Assembly (NCBI GenBank): GCA_031280965.1
Contig: JAITFZ010000023.1
Coordinates: 1 to 41,376 of the forward strand
Length of the DNA stretch: 41,376 nt
Source: Oscillospiraceae bacterium
GTDB lineage: Bacteria; Bacillota; Clostridia; Oscillospirales; Ruminococcaceae
Direction of reading: 5' to 3'
The number at the start of each line of letters is the position of its first letter. Within the stretch, counting starts at the first letter, position 1. Of this stretch, positions 5,488 through 39,203 are shown one piece after another. The notes under the pieces are model-generated. The model was not told the DNA's origin, made no database searches, and was given only the letters and a program-made list of their open reading frames with translations. Position numbers and translations under genes: made by a program.

Positions 5488-6375
5488 TTACGGAGTAGGC
5501 TCTACATATTTAGTGTAGAATATCAAAATGCCGTTGTCTTGGTCTATGCTCATACCTATTCCCGAAATGTCCCCGTCCAGACCGTAGTTCAAGCCGACCT
5601 CGCGAAGCAGAGGGTTCATGAAATTAAACGTTGTAACTCTTCTTTGTGTTACCCGGTTGCCGTCACGGAAGGCGTTCATAGATATTCTAAGCCCGCCGGA
5701 CTTTAAAACCTCTAATGTAAATTCGATGCCGCACTCGCATGTTCTTGCACATGTGTTGTTCGGAAACGCCGGACACACAAGAGTATCACATTCCGAAAGA
5801 CCCGCACATGCGCCGCCGCATGGCGGAGACGGGTTTCCGCATCTCCTGTACGGCAATCCGCAATCTAAAACCTTATCGCAGTCGCCGCACACATTACCGC
5901 CGCACCTCAAATTATAATACTTAGGCGGAAAAACAATTGCCGGAGCGTTTCCGCTCAACATTGTTGCCATATGCGTGAGCAGTTCGATAAGAGTATCTGT
6001 TTCGCTTATGTCGCCGAAGTCAAAAAGAACGCCCTGCCCGTTAAGGTATAACAAATGAGCTTTCATGTCGCCTTCGCTGAAATTTGCTAAAAAATCGTCT
6101 GCCTCTGTAATGAAGAGCGGTTTATGAAATGTAGCCCAGTCCATTATTTCAATCCGTGAGGTTGTATCGGTATTTACTTTTATATAACTGCCAATCGTTT
6201 CGAGAACGCCGTCCACACGCGCATTACGGCGCGTACTTTGTATAATCGCGTTCACAGGGTTAAACAGCATCGCCATAGCCGCAATAAGTATTGCGAAAAT
6301 ACCGATACATATCATCAGTTCTACCATGGTGAAGCCTTTTTTGCTTTTAAGCCTTTGCAGATACTTTATAATCAT
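5488..6375 (-). CDS. type IV pseudopilin with Cys-rich insert
   Basis: The 295-residue product has a class III prepilin leader KSKKG followed by FTMVELMICIGIFAILI, the PilD cleavage site with Glu at mature position 5 and the hydrophobic assembly helix. Residues 158-215 hold twelve Cys in short CxxC-like groups (CGGNVCGDC, CARTCEC). It is larger than a typical major pilin (about 150), so I call it a minor or tip pilin. The ATG at 6375 is chosen; an upstream TTG in the same frame would add nine residues, VKKGLYEN, that are encoded by a dispersed leader cassette. That ATG overlaps the TGA of a mini-ORF as ATGA, which suggests coupled translation. Confidence 0.85.
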   Translation of the reverse strand: MIIKYLQRLKSKKGFTMVELMICIGIFAILIAAMAMLFNPVNAIIQSTRRNARVDGVLETIGSYIKVNTDTTSRIEIMDWATFHKPLFITEADDFLANFSEGDMKAHLLYLNGQGVLFDFGDISETDTLIELLTHMATMLSGNAPAIVFPPKYYNLRCGGNVCGDCDKVLDCGLPYRRCGNPSPPCGGACAGLSECDTLVCPAFPNNTCARTCECGIEFTLEVLKSGGLRISMNAFRDGNRVTQRRVTTFNFMNPLLREVGLNYGLDGDISGIGMSIDQDNGILIFYTKYVEPTP

Positions 6376-6445
6376 ATTTTCATAAAGTCCTTTCTTCACC
6401 AACGGAGGATGGCTTCGTTTTAAAACGAAGCGAAAACGACATTTC
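6372..6445 (-). repeat. dispersed leader cassette, copy A (before the pseudopilin)
   Basis: Read on the minus strand: AAATGTCGTTTTCGC, a 20-base perfect palindrome (6431-6412, GCTTCGTTTT and AAAACGAAGC), eight variable bases, then TTGGTGAAGAAAGGAC and TTTATGAAAATATGA. Copy B (36141-36213) has the same order and the same eight-base variable gap; copy C (39176-39203) is the last 28 bases only. The 28 bases from TTGGTG to AAAATA are identical in A and C, with two changes in B. The element ends at the ATGA start of the downstream gene. Confidence 0.85.
6380..6442 (-). CDS. 20-residue leader ORF inside the cassette
   Basis: An ATG at 6442, two bases after GGAGG, opens a 20-codon frame that begins MSFSLRFK and ends VGEERTL. 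Its TGA (6382-6380) overlaps the ATG of a mini-ORF ATG-AAA-ATA-TGA (6383-6372), whose own TGA overlaps the pseudopilin ATG. The same first eight codons open copy B, and the last six codons (GEERTL) are the C-terminus of PhoP at copy C. Conservation at unlinked genes argues for a function or for copying of a mobile leader; translation is not proven, and the ribosome site is closer than ideal. Confidence 0.4.
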   Translation of the reverse strand: MSFSLRFKTKPSSVGEERTL

Positions 6446-6501
6446 CTCCATTTAAGTTGTATTTTGCTTCAGAATTAAACTCCCCTGCGCGGTTGCAAGA
6501 G

Positions 6502-28741: not shown

Positions 28742-30422
28742 TAAAATCCTCTAATAAAAACTCTGCCGCATATCTTATATGCTCTGACCTGCAAGAATCC
28801 GACACCTTTTTAAACTCGTCAATATAACCCTGCCTATTCCCGCTGTCAAGCGCTTTCCGCGCCGCGCCGGCATAAAATCCGAAGCGATGAATTTCAGAAA
28901 GTTCGCCTGAGTTGCGGTTATCGGCGGCGTAACGCGCCGCATATTTCGCGAAGCTCCCGTAAAACACCGCCCTTTCATGCCAGGGGATTCTGCCCGTGTA
29001 GCCCAGCGCCGCCTCGTAAAGCTTAATTCCGAAAGATAAGTTTTCGGGGCTTTCGGTGAAAAACCGCTCGTCTTTATAGCCCATCACCAAACGGGGCATA
29101 TTTAAGTTGTTTTGTGCGATTTTAGCTAAAATTGCGGTTAAATATTCGTCATTCATATTCAGGATTGTGTCTGTTATATCGGCGTTGTTTTTCAATGTAT
29201 TTAAAACCGTTTCATAATCCTGCTCCGAAACGCTGTCCTGCGCCGCATTGTCGTCGGGAACGTCGTCTGCGCCGCCTTTTGAAACCACCTGTATTTCCGC
29301 GTTCACGATGCTTGTATCAAACGCCACCTTCTTGCGGCCTGTTTTAAAGAGAAGGCTGTTGTATTCGGCTTTTGCCGCGTCATGCTTTTCGGGCTCAATG
29401 AACGTAATCGACATCATGCCTAAGCCGACGGCACTCAGGTTTCCGCGCATATAAGCTTCATACAGTCTGAAATAATCCTCGAAAGATTTTATAGCCTCTT
29501 CGTATTCCCCCTGCTTTTGTAAGGTTAAAGCTTTAGCCGCGTATACGTCAAGCCAAAGTACGCTTTTGCTTTTTGCCTGCCTTTTATAAATGCCGAGAAA
29601 TTCGTTGATACAGGCTTTTGCCTTATCGTATTCCTCCCTCTCGCAGCAAATTTGTATATTAAGGACTAAAAAACATGCCGCGTAATCGTCTTTGGGCTGT
29701 TTTCGCGCTACAACGAGCGACTCGCGCAAAAACGTTTCTGCTTCCTCCCCCGAAAGCTCCTTGTTAATATGGAAGCGGACGCGGCAGTCATCGGGGTTCT
29801 TTTTCAGTTCTTCGTATAACGGAACAAGGTTTCTCTGCTTTTTGGCTTCTTTTTGTTCTGCGGTTTCGTGCGCGTATCCCCAGTGATTAGCGAATGTACT
29901 AAGATACCGCGTGGGCGCAGGGAATGGCGACAGGTGTTCGTGTATGGCGCCTTTAAAGCACAGCCCCGGAACACGCTTCGCTATGCGGTGTACCGCGAAC
30001 TTTGACCACACGGAGCCGTCGGGCGTTGTGTAGTCTTTTGTCATATAAACGGCGCTTCTGTACTTATTAAGCATTTTCCCGTCGGTAAAAAAGGCGGTGA
30101 TTTCGCTTAAATCCTCATCGAGAATGTCATCCGCGTCAATGAACATAAACCACTCTCCGACGCATTTATTAAGCCCGAAGTTGCGGGCAGCGGAAAAATC
30201 ACCAATCCAGTCAAAGTGAAAAACCTTATCTGTATAACGCCGTGCAATTTCAACGGTTTTATCCGTTGAGCCGGTATCCGTTATTACCAACTCGCTCGGG
30301 ACCGCGTCTAAAAGCGGCTTTAATGCGTCAAGACATTGAGCAAGGTATTTTTCCTCATTTTTTACTATCATGCCGACAGATAAAACAATGCCGCTGTTAT
30401 TTCCGATAATTCGAGCTTTCAT
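28731..30422 (-). CDS. family 2 glycosyltransferase with TPR-like C-terminal part
   Basis: The 563-residue product has a GT-A domain (about 14-110): LSVGMIVKNEEKYLAQCLDAL, VITDTGSTDKTVEIARRY and the nucleotide-sugar/metal motif FMFIDADD. After about 200 come helical TPR-like repeats (EEYDKAKACINEFLGIY, GEYEEAIKSFEDYFRLY). No membrane helix is seen, so it should be cytoplasmic. The SunS-type GT-TPR layout is found in enzymes that modify peptides or proteins; acceptor unknown. It follows a paralogue by 16 bases, likely in one transcript. Confidence 0.85.
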   Translation of the reverse strand: MKARIIGNNSGIVLSVGMIVKNEEKYLAQCLDALKPLLDAVPSELVITDTGSTDKTVEIARRYTDKVFHFDWIGDFSAARNFGLNKCVGEWFMFIDADDILDEDLSEITAFFTDGKMLNKYRSAVYMTKDYTTPDGSVWSKFAVHRIAKRVPGLCFKGAIHEHLSPFPAPTRYLSTFANHWGYAHETAEQKEAKKQRNLVPLYEELKKNPDDCRVRFHINKELSGEEAETFLRESLVVARKQPKDDYAACFLVLNIQICCEREEYDKAKACINEFLGIYKRQAKSKSVLWLDVYAAKALTLQKQGEYEEAIKSFEDYFRLYEAYMRGNLSAVGLGMMSITFIEPEKHDAAKAEYNSLLFKTGRKKVAFDTSIVNAEIQVVSKGGADDVPDDNAAQDSVSEQDYETVLNTLKNNADITDTILNMNDEYLTAILAKIAQNNLNMPRLVMGYKDERFFTESPENLSFGIKLYEAALGYTGRIPWHERAVFYGSFAKYAARYAADNRNSGELSEIHRFGFYAGAARKALDSGNRQGYIDEFKKVSDSCRSEHIRYAAEFLLEDFTGG

Positions 30423-30438: not shown

Positions 30439-32427
30439 TTACAGCGTCGCGCTGAATTCGTTTATGATGAATTTTATGATTTCCTGCTTAGAATTGCAGG
30501 AAGTTAAAGCTTTCTTGAGTTCCCTGACATAACTGAGCTTGTTTCCGGCGTCAAGCTCTTTTTGTGCCGCGCCCATATAATAACCGAATCTGTCCGACTC
30601 AGGAAGCGCGCCGACATCGGATTCATTAAGCAAATCGGCATTATAAACATTCGCAACGTAAAGCGAGCTGTAATTTAAATAAATCCTGTAGAGCGCGGAT
30701 TTCTGCACGTCATTCAAGGCGCCGGCTCTGCTGCACGCCGCCTCAAAAAGCAACGTCCCGAACAGCAGATTTTTAATGCTTGAAAAATAAAATTCATCGC
30801 TTTTGTAATTAAGCGCCAAAAGCGGCAGATTATCATTATAAAGTGCGATGGTTGTTAAATGCGCCATAATAAGCTCGAAGTTCATTTTCGAGATTGCGCC
30901 GCTTAAATCAATCTGTTTCATCAAAGCGAGATAAACAGCCTCGGAATAACCCGCGGGAAGCGCATCAAAGCTTTCTGTGAATTCTTCTAAACCTGCGTTA
31001 TCCCCGTTCGCGCAAATTCGCATAAATTCGGCAAACTTACCTTTAGGGGCGGCTTCTTCCCCCTCGGGTTCAAAGCTTTTTGCAAATTCCCGGTCGCGGT
31101 AATATAATTTTTCAAGCTCCTGTACAAAATAAGCCGTCTTGTCTTCCCCGCCTGTTCCGATGATTTTCTCATAAAACTTAACAAGCTCTTTACGGAAAGA
31201 ATCTGTTTCAAATGCGGCTTGGTTCCCCGCGATTTCAATGACGGTGCTTATGATTTTGCCGAAAGTTTCCGCGCTCACGGAACCGAAGTCGGTATCGGCA
31301 TAAACCGAGAACGCCTCTGCGGGGCGGTTCTGCCCGGAAATGCAAAGAGCAAGCGTGTTCTGCATGGAATCACGCTTTTCGGGCATCAGCCAGTTTGAAA
31401 CGACAAAACCCAGTACGCCTCTGTCAAGTTCGTTATTTTCGTATTTCTTATAGTATTCAAGGAAATTTCTTATGCTTTCTTCCGCTTCGGAAAACCTTCC
31501 GAGTTCATTAAGAAGCCCGCCCTTAAAGGCATAGGCTTCGGCGAGTACGGCGTTGTCCGGATTTGCTTTTGAGATTGCTCTGTCTATAACATCGAGCGCT
31601 TTCTCGTTTTGTTCTTCTTTTTTATACATTTCAAAAGCATTGAAATAAGCGGTGAACAAAACAGGTTCATCAGACTTGTCGGCGAGCGGAAGCGACCTTT
31701 CTATAAGCTCACGTTTCCTGTCGTCTAAAAAAAGCATAGATGAAACGGTATGATAGATGTTCCGCAGGTTATCGGGGTCTTTTTCGAGTTCTTTTTCGAG
31801 CAGCACAAGGTTGCGCTTAGATTTTTCGATGAGCTTTTCCTCTGTTTCAAAAGCGTAGCCGTAGTGCAGGGCGTAGGAATTTGAATAGTAAGCTGGAAGG
31901 TAAAAGTTATTGAAATACTCATGGATTGCGCCCTCGAACCGCAAATCGTCTGTTTTGCGGTTTATTCTGTGAGCGCAGAAGTTAAAGTACGTATCATACT
32001 GCATGGTAGTGTAGTTGCGGGTGATATAATAAGCGGTGTTGTAGTTCCTGTGAATGTTCTCATTACTGAAAAACTCAATCAAATCACTAATATCCTCGAA
32101 GTGGTCGTCTGCGTCAAGGAACATGAACCACTGCCCCCTGCATTTTTCAAGCCCGAAGTTGCGGGCTGCGGCAAAGTCATTGACCCAGTCAAAGTGTTCA
32201 ATCCTGTCGGTATAACGGCGCGCAATTTCGACAGTTTTGTCCGTTGAACCGGTATCAACGATAATAAGCTCGCTCGGAACGGCATCTAAAAGCGGCTTCA
32301 AGCCGTCAAGGCAGGTGCCGAGCATTTTTTCCTCGTTTTTGACTATCATGCTGACCGAAACGATTATTTTTTTGTCATAAGTATAAGACAGGGTTTTTGC
32401 AGTGCTTTGAGAGACACGGGCTTTCAT
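30439..32427 (-). CDS. family 2 glycosyltransferase with long TPR-like C-terminal part
   Basis: The 662-residue product is a paralogue of the downstream gene and shares the GT-A core almost word for word: VSVSMIVKNEEKMLGTCLDGL, IIVDTGSTDKTVEIARRYTD and WFMFLDADD. The C-terminal 400 residues are helical with TPR-like units (EEQNEKALDVIDRAISKANPD, GRFSEAEESIRNFLEYY). Both proteins start MKAR and end with a similar helical segment (SDRFGYYMGAAQKELDAGN against HRFGFYAGAARKALDSGN), pointing to a tandem duplication. AGGAGG stands eight bases before the ATG. Its substrate is not evident. Confidence 0.85.
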   Translation of the reverse strand: MKARVSQSTAKTLSYTYDKKIIVSVSMIVKNEEKMLGTCLDGLKPLLDAVPSELIIVDTGSTDKTVEIARRYTDRIEHFDWVNDFAAARNFGLEKCRGQWFMFLDADDHFEDISDLIEFFSNENIHRNYNTAYYITRNYTTMQYDTYFNFCAHRINRKTDDLRFEGAIHEYFNNFYLPAYYSNSYALHYGYAFETEEKLIEKSKRNLVLLEKELEKDPDNLRNIYHTVSSMLFLDDRKRELIERSLPLADKSDEPVLFTAYFNAFEMYKKEEQNEKALDVIDRAISKANPDNAVLAEAYAFKGGLLNELGRFSEAEESIRNFLEYYKKYENNELDRGVLGFVVSNWLMPEKRDSMQNTLALCISGQNRPAEAFSVYADTDFGSVSAETFGKIISTVIEIAGNQAAFETDSFRKELVKFYEKIIGTGGEDKTAYFVQELEKLYYRDREFAKSFEPEGEEAAPKGKFAEFMRICANGDNAGLEEFTESFDALPAGYSEAVYLALMKQIDLSGAISKMNFELIMAHLTTIALYNDNLPLLALNYKSDEFYFSSIKNLLFGTLLFEAACSRAGALNDVQKSALYRIYLNYSSLYVANVYNADLLNESDVGALPESDRFGYYMGAAQKELDAGNKLSYVRELKKALTSCNSKQEIIKFIINEFSATL

Positions 32428-36076: not shown

Positions 36077-36140
36077 AAAAACAACTGCGAAATCGAAAAA
36101 GCCGGGACAAAATTTGAAATAAATTAAAACTGAAACGGGG

Positions 36141-36213
36141 AAAATGTCGTTTTCGCTTCGTTTTAAACGAAGCTGTTCTCTGTTGGTGAAGAAAGGGTTT
36201 TATGAAAATATGA
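36141..36213 (+). repeat. dispersed leader cassette, copy B (at pstA)
   Basis: Same order as copy A: AAATGTCGTTTTCGC, palindrome (36155-36173, here 19 bases), eight different spacer bases, then TTGGTGAAGAAAGGG and ATGAAAATATGA. A one-base deletion in the palindrome puts the leader frame (ATG 36144, MSFSLRFK...) in frame with pstA, so 22 leader residues could be fused to PstA. The mini-ORF ATG-AAA-ATA-TGA (36202-36213) still ends in ATGA overlap with the pstA ATG. Confidence 0.85.
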
Positions 36214-38496: not shown

Positions 38497-39198
38497 ATGA
38501 CCGGAACGATTTACATTGTTGAAGATGACGCCAATATAAGAGAGCTTGTGGTTTATGCGCTGAATTCGGGCGGCTTTGAAGCGTACGGCTTTGAAACCGG
38601 CGGGGAATTCCATGCCAAAATGCAAAGCGCGGAGAAACCGGATTTAATTCTGCTTGATATAATGCTGCCCGGCGGGGACGGACTGAGTATGTTAAAAGAG
38701 CTTAGGAAAAACCTGTATACCTCACGAATTCCGATAATCATGCTGACCGCCAAAGCAAGCGAGTATGACAAGCTCGCCGGGTTTGAACTCGGCGCCGATG
38801 ATTATATGACAAAGCCTTTTTCGGTGCTTGAATTAATTTCGCGGGTCAAGGCGGTGTTGAGACGCGCACAAATGAGCGATGCCGACAATGTTCTGACCTG
38901 CAAAGGAATTACGCTTGATATTCCGAGGCACATTATAAAGTCGGACGGCGAAACAATCAGCCTGACTTTCAAGGAGTTTGAGCTTTTAAAGTACCTGATT
39001 CAAAACCGCGGCATAGTTTTATCGCGGAACAGAATCACCGAAAAAATCTGGGGCTTCGATTTCGAGGGAGAAAGCCGCACTGTAGATATGCATATAAAGA
39101 CGCTTCGTAAAAAGCTCGGCGAAAACGGCGCCTTAATTGAAACCGTTCGCGGCATAGGATACAAAATCAGCGAATTTGGTGAAGAAAGGACTTTATGA
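38497..39198 (+). CDS. phoP: phosphate response regulator PhoP/PhoB (OmpR family)
   Basis: The 233-residue product has a receiver with Asp10/Asp11, phospho-Asp54 (LLDIMLPGG), Thr84 and Lys106, and a winged-helix DNA-binding domain (about 130-228; LTFKEFELLKYLIQNRG, RTVDMHIKTLRKKLG, IETVRGIGYKI). It should bind the TTTACA repeats before pstS. The last six residues, GEERTL, and the stop lie in leader cassette copy C, so the cassette forms the protein's end. Confidence 0.95.
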   Translation: MTGTIYIVEDDANIRELVVYALNSGGFEAYGFETGGEFHAKMQSAEKPDLILLDIMLPGGDGLSMLKELRKNLYTSRIPIIMLTAKASEYDKLAGFELGADDYMTKPFSVLELISRVKAVLRRAQMSDADNVLTCKGITLDIPRHIIKSDGETISLTFKEFELLKYLIQNRGIVLSRNRITEKIWGFDFEGESRTVDMHIKTLRKKLGENGALIETVRGIGYKISEFGEERTL

Positions 39199-39203
39199 AA
39201 ATA
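39176..39203 (+). repeat. dispersed leader cassette, copy C (phoP/phoR junction)
   Basis: The 28 bases are identical to the 3' part of copy A. The palindromic part is absent. The phoP TGA (39196-39198) overlaps a mini-ORF ATG-AAA-ATA-AAA-TGA (39195-39209), whose TGA overlaps the phoR ATG at 39206. The extra AAA codon relative to copies A and B keeps both overlaps intact. Confidence 0.85.

Follow-up and report, generated by a model that had tools for sequence, protein, structure and literature searches.

What is a short block of sequence doing, in nearly identical form, in front of three genes as different as a prepilin-type gene, pstA and phoR? The question is raised by the window, the whole 41,376-nt stretch of DNA analyzed here, which comes from the genome of a termite-gut bacterium (referred to in the following as G000). 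A preliminary description had interpreted the block as a copied or mobile leader that perhaps takes ribosomes through a tiny ORF by way of overlapping ATGA sequences, a stop/start relay. The results presented below give good support to a real and unusual family of small mobile elements located directly before start codons.

The three copies in the window

The 28-mer TTGGTGAAGAAAGGACTTTATGAAAATA occurs in identical form at 6375–6402 on the minus strand and at 39176–39203 on the plus strand, and with two changes at 36183–36210 on the plus strand. The chance expectation for a 28-base pattern with up to three mismatches in the window was 0.00 (100 shuffles). All three blocks of the preliminary description were present, but the first had been given as 6372–6403, which is 32 bases rather than 28, and the one with two changes as 36182–36209, one base off. 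Each block is only the 3′ end of something longer, a dispersed element whose copies A, B and C are listed in Table 1.

The proteins encoded downstream matched N_methyl (PF07963) at copy A, BPD_transp_1 (PF00528) at copy B, and HisKA and HATPase_c at copy C. Copy C encodes the terminal residues ...FGEERTL* of phoB, which ends without this sequence in G023, G012 and G056. The ATGA overlap with an upstream frame, reported for copies A and C, involves a real gene only at C, where it is phoB; at A, the frame is the element's own.

Table 1. Coordinates of the element copies, Shine–Dalgarno (SD) sequences and palindromic repeat
Feature	Position	Strand	Context or basis
Copy A, 101-nt form	6376–6476	−	directly 5′ of prepilin-type gene ATG (6375–6373)
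Probable fossil native SD, AGGGGAG, upstream of copy A	6480–6486	−	from sequence
Element SD, AAAGGA, copy A	6388–6393	−	from sequence
Copy B, 100-nt form, hairpin GCTTCGTTTTAAACGAAGC	36110–36209	+	directly 5′ of pstA ATG (36210)
Element SD, AAAGGG, copy B	36192–36197	+	from sequence
Copy C, 5′-truncated remnant (last 28 nt)	39175–39202	+	3 nt before phoR ATG (39206)
Palindrome repeat	L277:1106–1148 (G000 C2:14005–14047); L014, L052, L001 (G000); L106, L110, L109, L387, L332 (G012)		

A dispersed element of 80 or 101 nt

A 24-base core, allowing up to three mismatches, had 109 matches in G000, 56 forward and 53 reverse, while the reversed control had none. A model of the sequence alone (R1), derived from 45 copies, gave at least 127 matches at E ≤ 0.01 when 150 of 2242 candidates were scored. 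We examined 128 copies, 104 found by pattern in retrieved stretches and 24 more by the model, which make up 104 loci, 84 of them with one copy, 16 with two and 4 with three. The element has a short form of 80 nt (G000 consensus from 40 copies, AAGTTTGAAACAAAATACAACTGAAACGGGGAAAACGTTGTTTTCATTCCTTGTTGGTGAAGAAAGGACTTTATGAAAAT) and a long form of 101 nt, in which an extra hairpin lies around GCTTCGTTTTAAAACGAAGC; the long form is 101 nt at copy A and 100 nt at copy B. The core is strongly conserved among the copies, a value biased by their having been found with that core pattern, and 26 of the 104 pattern-found copies had no recognizable left end. No terminal inverted repeat was seen in the alignment, in which the ends AAGTTTGAAAC and ATGAAAAT are not mutually inverted.

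Spacing within the G000 arrays was mostly 80 nt. Array neighbors differed by a mean of 2.9 mismatches (8 pairs), compared to 10.2 for all pairs (780), suggesting that the arrays arose by local duplication. A degenerate array of about five units with a 75-nt period was seen after coaD in G027 (L127:2013–2379). At two loci in G000, L230:1001–1038 (C16:126040) and L231 (C15:6861), mainly the left half of the element is kept; GAAACAGGGGAAATAAAC or GAAACGGGGAATATGAAAAT then stands right before the gene ATG, and GGGG from the element may now act as the SD sequence.

Position at start codons

A sense ORF of at least 60 codons begins at the 3′ end of the element at 97 of the 104 G000 loci, including by rule a 62-aa ORF at C32:1944 that looks spurious. 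In the genome-wide search by which the preliminary description could have been refuted, copies stood in a fixed relation to starts and in one orientation, and they were not mostly inside genes. The other seven loci had no 60-aa ORF at the 3′ end. Three of these have no ATG directly after the element (C13:40925, C16:31024 and C2:30257). At C2:17235 and C20:187635 there is an ATG with a very short ORF, and a longer ORF ≈180 and ≈100 nt further on, respectively; at C5:8530 a 20-codon ORF faces a gene on the opposite strand, and at C13:21897 the ATG of a 7-codon ORF follows.

In 76 of the loci with such an ORF, the copy had been found by the pattern, and the start could be placed relative to the element's own ATG: the offset was +8 at 54 loci, +11 at 11, and 0 at nine, where the gene start is the element's ATG itself, with one locus each at 7 and 19 nt. 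In G012, the metagenome-assembled genome Oscillospiraceae Pal332_bin19, an ORF that either reached 60 aa or continued past the end of the stretch followed the element at 19 of 21 loci, counting by rule one (L373) at which the ORF begins 31 nt away. In G027 (Lab288P3bin172) the figure was 20 of 23, with two of the three misses cut by the end of the stretch or contig. These samples consisted of 20 stretches each, from the better-scoring model matches among those listed, some overlapping earlier ones; the G012 and G027 copies of the first sampling were mostly retrieved by a pattern ending in ATG and are start-biased.

That the genes served are unrelated, as the preliminary description had stated for its three, was borne out by a scan of 20 downstream proteins, which fell into unrelated families. 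With names assigned by eye from family and sequence, these are prepilin-like, pstA-like, a histidine kinase, coaD, dnaB, glmU, galU, pyrH, rplO, rsmG, parB, gpmI, rdgB, aroQ, dxr, a phosphoribosyltransferase, two large serine recombinases, pheT and pfkA.

The start codons themselves are not a random sample. ATGAA follows 39 of the 54 copies in the +8 class, and other sequences the remaining 15, compared to ATGAA at 23 of 77 element-free genes (p = 3 × 10−6). The shorter ATGA begins 47 of 54 genes in the +8 class, 4 of 11 in the +11 class and 34 of the 77 element-free genes, and sites with ATGG, ATGT or ATGC also occur. If copies inserted at any ATGAA and were then purged from coding sequence, ≈58% would be expected at starts, based on 34 of 59 non-coding ATGAA sites in 68 kb with crude gene calls. 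The probability of observing 97 of 104 under this expectation is roughly 3 × 10−16. Apparently, either recognition extends beyond ATGAA, or selection is stronger than in the simple purging model.

One G000 locus, C20:96494 (L055), combined an SD and an ATG in a place that was not a gene start: here the element precedes ATGGAGGCGTTATG, a 4-codon ORF whose ATG lies ahead of the GGAGG of an atpH-like gene (named by eye).

Empty sites and the native Shine–Dalgarno sequence

The pstA site could be compared base by base. The empty site reads GGGACA/ATG and the filled site GGGACA/element/ATG, with no target duplication and a single ambiguous base (A). In G027 the empty sequence is AAGGCGGGACA/ATGAAAAG, and the filled one in G000 is AAGCCGGGACA/AAATTTGAAA...GAAAAT/ATGAACAG; G012 and G023 are likewise empty. 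Target duplication was judged at pstA, the other empty sites being too diverged for reading at the base level. At a flavodoxin-like gene (C2:13422), G012 has a full long-type copy after GGAGGTATT and G000 a truncated copy, and the site is empty in G023, G017 and G027. The rsmG site is empty in five sister genomes and the parB site in all four in which the gene was found. Thirty genomes were inspected at rplO: an old, divergent copy lies between rpmD and rplO in G000, G012 and G027, and the remaining 27 have no element within the 45 nt preceding the rplO ATG. Read by eye, the rpmD TGA stop is provided by the left end of this copy in G000 (L279) and G012 (L298), and in G023 (L283) the rpmD stop overlaps the rplO ATG. 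We dropped coaD as an example of an empty site because its upstream regions were too diverged.

We then asked what lies to the left of the element. An SD match of at least 4 was scored within 22 nt left of the outermost full-length copy, with the region 40–62 nt upstream as a control; 30 of 127 full-length copies, either inner array members or with a flank shorter than 20 nt, were excluded. Matches were found at 37 of 56 copies in G000, compared to 7 of 56 in the control (Fisher p = 7 × 10−9), at 23 of 29 compared to 10 of 29 in G012 (p = 0.001), and at 11 of 12 compared to 3 of 12 in G027 (p = 0.003). Altogether, 71 of the 97 outermost full-length copies had a match, and 59 of the 71 matches were 3–9 nt from the element. 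By the same rule, no fossil SD was present at 19 of the 56 full-length G000 copies. Among truncated G000 copies, the left edge had a match in 6 of 25. The presence of an SD sequence at the left edge, and its rarity at truncated copies, suggest that copies enter between the native SD and the ATG, and that the 5′ part of the element may later be lost together with the fossil SD.

The element also carries an SD sequence near its 3′ end. In copy A, AAAGGA is separated from the ATG of the mini-ORF (6383–6381) by 4 nt and from the native one by 12 nt, the arrangement of the main class. By the rules of SD spacing, a start codon 12 nt after AAGGA is workable, and a distance of 4 nt is short. The element's SD is thus probably used for the native start.

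The mini-ORF and RNA structure

Among the 65 gene-adjacent copies with an offset of 8 or 11, the mini-ORF ATG was absent in 13, and the complete relay, consisting of this ATG and an overlapping TGA, was present in 38. Divergent relatives end before the gene in sequences such as GGACATGGTGAAAA or GGACATAGGGGAA. Based on these observations and on the other offsets, we rejected the stop/start relay as a selected function. Of the preliminary description, the copied, mobile leader before unrelated genes is supported by the position at starts and the empty sites, but the purpose given to that leader is not supported. The excess of ATGA starts in the +8 class has no counterpart in the +11 class, which has the same phase. 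Although the latter class is small (n = 11), this fits a target preference better than selection for a relay, and we read the pattern as a target preference that differs by subfamily. In six G027 copies (L395, L398, L400, L402, L405 and L406), the element's ATG is in frame and 12 nt before that of the gene; a start there would make the protein four residues longer.

A conserved leader peptide was also rejected, as copies of 78, 79, 81, 82, 99, 100 and 102 nt break any common frame (by eye). In folding comparisons, both long copies in the window scored better than shuffled sequences (z = −1.9 and −2.7), while another long copy (L056) and two copies of the 80-nt form were like the shuffles (z = −0.03 to 0.22). 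With three of five folded copies no better than shuffles, a conserved RNA structure was discarded. A search of eight sources against Rfam at the gathering threshold returned two tRNAs and nothing else, and copy B had no match up to E = 1. A hit of CRISPR-DR56 to one G012 copy (27.5 bits, gathering threshold 35) included flanking letters and was judged to be due to chance.

Distribution and mobility

When the core pattern was run against 71 genomes of the genus, more than one match was found only in G000, G012 and G027. The model was applied to 10 genomes, scoring 150 of ≈1500–2900 candidates per genome, and yielded at least 127 matches in G012, at least 179 in G027, 29 in G020, 24 in G046, four in G056, two weak ones in G023, one in G042, and none in three others. 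We inspected 18 divergent matches from G020, G046, G056, G023 and G042, most of which lie directly before an ORF start; the weakest (L351, L361 and L345) look like chance. An order-wide model search of 394 genomes, using strict filters and ≈11 scored candidates per genome, found only G000. In a gyrB+gyrA+mnmG tree, G012 and G027 grouped together (support 91) and were joined by G023 (100), with G000 outside. G023 is nested among the carriers, yet nearly empty, a distribution that requires losses, transfers or late bursts.

Of 23 80-mers sampled in G012, mostly with the pattern ending in ATG, seven matched a single consensus exactly and 15 differed from it by at most one base, and near-identical copies precede differing genes. 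The G000 copies are older: 40 80-mers had 2–14 mismatches from their consensus. In addition, one full copy was found on a 22-kb IMG/VR contig, between GTGGAGGTAAAC (GGAGG) and ATG; the same contig encodes capsid, tail sheath and tape-measure families, making a phage a possible vehicle for the element. The near-identical G012 copies before unrelated genes and the copy on the phage contig suggest that the element is mobile, or recently was. A G012 copy used as the query had no match in collections of plasmids and of named phages, and two further patterns had none in viral_contigs.

Candidate movers and known systems

Three kinds of enzyme were considered as the mover. Y1_Tnp (PF01797) had no match in the drafts of G000, G012 and G027; across the genus, it occurs in 20 of 71 genomes. 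DEDD_Tnp_IS110 (PF01548) was found once in G000 and not in the G012 and G027 drafts, and RVT_1 (PF00078) once in G012, once weakly in G000, and not in the G027 draft. The G012 reverse transcriptase locus holds a group II intron domain as well, and nothing was seen there that would tie it to start codons. We rejected all three as movers, none being present in all three main carriers; these assemblies consist of 36, about 330 and about 100 contigs, and repeated IS elements can be lost from such drafts, which makes absence weak evidence.

IS900, a member of the IS110 family, is more than 1 kb long and sits between the RBS and the start of its target gene. The element described here has also inserted between SD and ATG, but it is 80 nt long and gene-free, while IS900 encodes its own transposase (PMC8141618). 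The target motif given for IS900 in the same source is CATGNNNNNNTCTCCTT, and we note that it reads as the complement of an SD plus start codon. Measured against such a target (CATG and a CTCCTT-like stretch), the position of our element agrees, but the base before the ATG varies and the SD match is limited to the 71 of 97 copies above. IS900 shows that SD–start-like targets can be chosen by an insertion sequence; the element resembles it in position, yet we do not file it as an IS900 type.

MITEs, REP, ERIC, Correia and RPE sequences are short, non-coding repeats, dispersed in high copy number and with a species-specific consensus. Our element is similarly short, non-coding, dispersed and present in many copies with a species-specific consensus, but it lacks terminal inverted repeats and, at pstA, any visible target duplication, and differs further in its fixed location before starts and its built-in SD. 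Palindromic elements derived from IS200/IS605 (PATE/REP) insert strand-specifically at a short motif and make no target duplication. These features are shared, including a preference for sites beside ATGAA/TTCAT, but here the motif is not strict, the copies are nearly restricted to starts, and no Y1 transposase was found in the drafts of the three main carriers. The element fits the definition of none of the families tested, and among the papers listed from the open-licence literature, no title or abstract start described such an element.

Discussion

Taken together, we think it probable that the copies constitute a family of non-autonomous mobile elements for which the translation start is the insertion site. 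A copy would enter as a unit, in one orientation and without visible target duplication, immediately 5′ of a start codon, preferably ATGAA, and between this codon and the native SD. The element brings its own SD at its end, which in the main class is an AAAGGA placed 12 nt before the native ATG, and the gene should therefore remain translatable. The native SD would become a fossil that can be deleted along with the 5′ part of the element, producing 5′-truncated copies, and arrays of mostly 80-nt period would grow by local duplication. The mover is presumably a trans-acting recombinase or transposase that recognizes a target made up of SD, spacer and ATG. Judging from the sequences, we infer that transposition occurs in trans at the DNA level, and that the element is selfish rather than regulatory. 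It is conceivable, if somewhat improbable, that the target of this mobility is the translation start itself: an enzyme or RNA-guided complex would recognize SD and start codon, perhaps in an open initiation region or in mRNA, and would put in place a portable RBS of 80 nt on which host genes, essential ones included, become dependent.

Other readings have to be weighed against this. A miniature element of the IS200/IS605 type, moved by a single-strand (Y1) mechanism with 5′-TTCAT on the antisense strand as its target, that is, 5′ of ATGAA, would account for the ATGAA excess, the fixed orientation and the pstA site without duplication. We nevertheless consider it unlikely: besides the lack of a Y1_Tnp match in the three drafts and the ATGG, ATGT and ATGC sites, targeting of TTCAT alone followed by purging predicts that ≈42% of copies should be at intergenic sites other than starts, far above what was observed. 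A retro-element, copied from RNA by reverse transcription at the target, should keep one 3′ end and be truncated to varying degrees at the 5′ end; the 3′ end is indeed fixed here, and some copies have no left end. However, the left-edge SD, much rarer at truncated than at full copies, points to later deletion, and G027, with its 179 or more model matches, had no RVT_1 match in its draft, leaving this reading very improbable.

The third alternative is a regulon, in which the repeats are leaders kept for control of translation, either in trans, by an RNA-binding protein, a small RNA or temperature, or through passage of ribosomes over the mini-ORF. The sense orientation, the SD-proximal site, the conserved core (with the bias mentioned above) and the folding of the two long window copies would all be in keeping with regulation. 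On the other hand, the genes served are unrelated, sister species differ in their sites and have clean empty ones, Rfam returned nothing beyond tRNAs, the remaining folded copies resembled shuffles, and a fifth of the gene-adjacent copies have lost the mini-ORF ATG. Regulation of this kind, in any of its variants, is in our opinion quite unlikely.

If the copies are mobile elements with the translation start as their site, as we prefer, they suggest that mobile DNA may spread through essential genes without inactivating them, by landing between SD and ATG and supplying a new SD in exchange. In one species the element stands at the start codon of about a hundred genes, which include dnaB, rplO, pyrH and dxr. 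The filled and empty orthologous sites are natural replicates for the effect of replacing an SD, and recognition of translation starts by an enzyme becomes testable. Gene callers should be warned that the element adds spurious starts, stops and short ORFs.

Other repeats

A 50-nt direct repeat, AGTGTCAATTTGGGGAACGAAAGGCATGTTTTGGGGAACGAAA..., is found at positions 1–50 and 2799–2848 of the window; the two copies are 94% identical, with 43 nt identical throughout, and no third copy was detected at E ≤ 10−4 among the retrieved sequences. G000 and G012 also have in common another dispersed repeat, a palindrome of the type AACCCTGTTATCCATTTCTTAAATGGATAACAGTATTAA with a terminator-like shape (Table 1). 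Finally, positions 30115–30380 and 32093–32358 of the window are 76% identical, the first of these reading as glycosyltransferase-like coding sequence (named by eye) on the minus strand.
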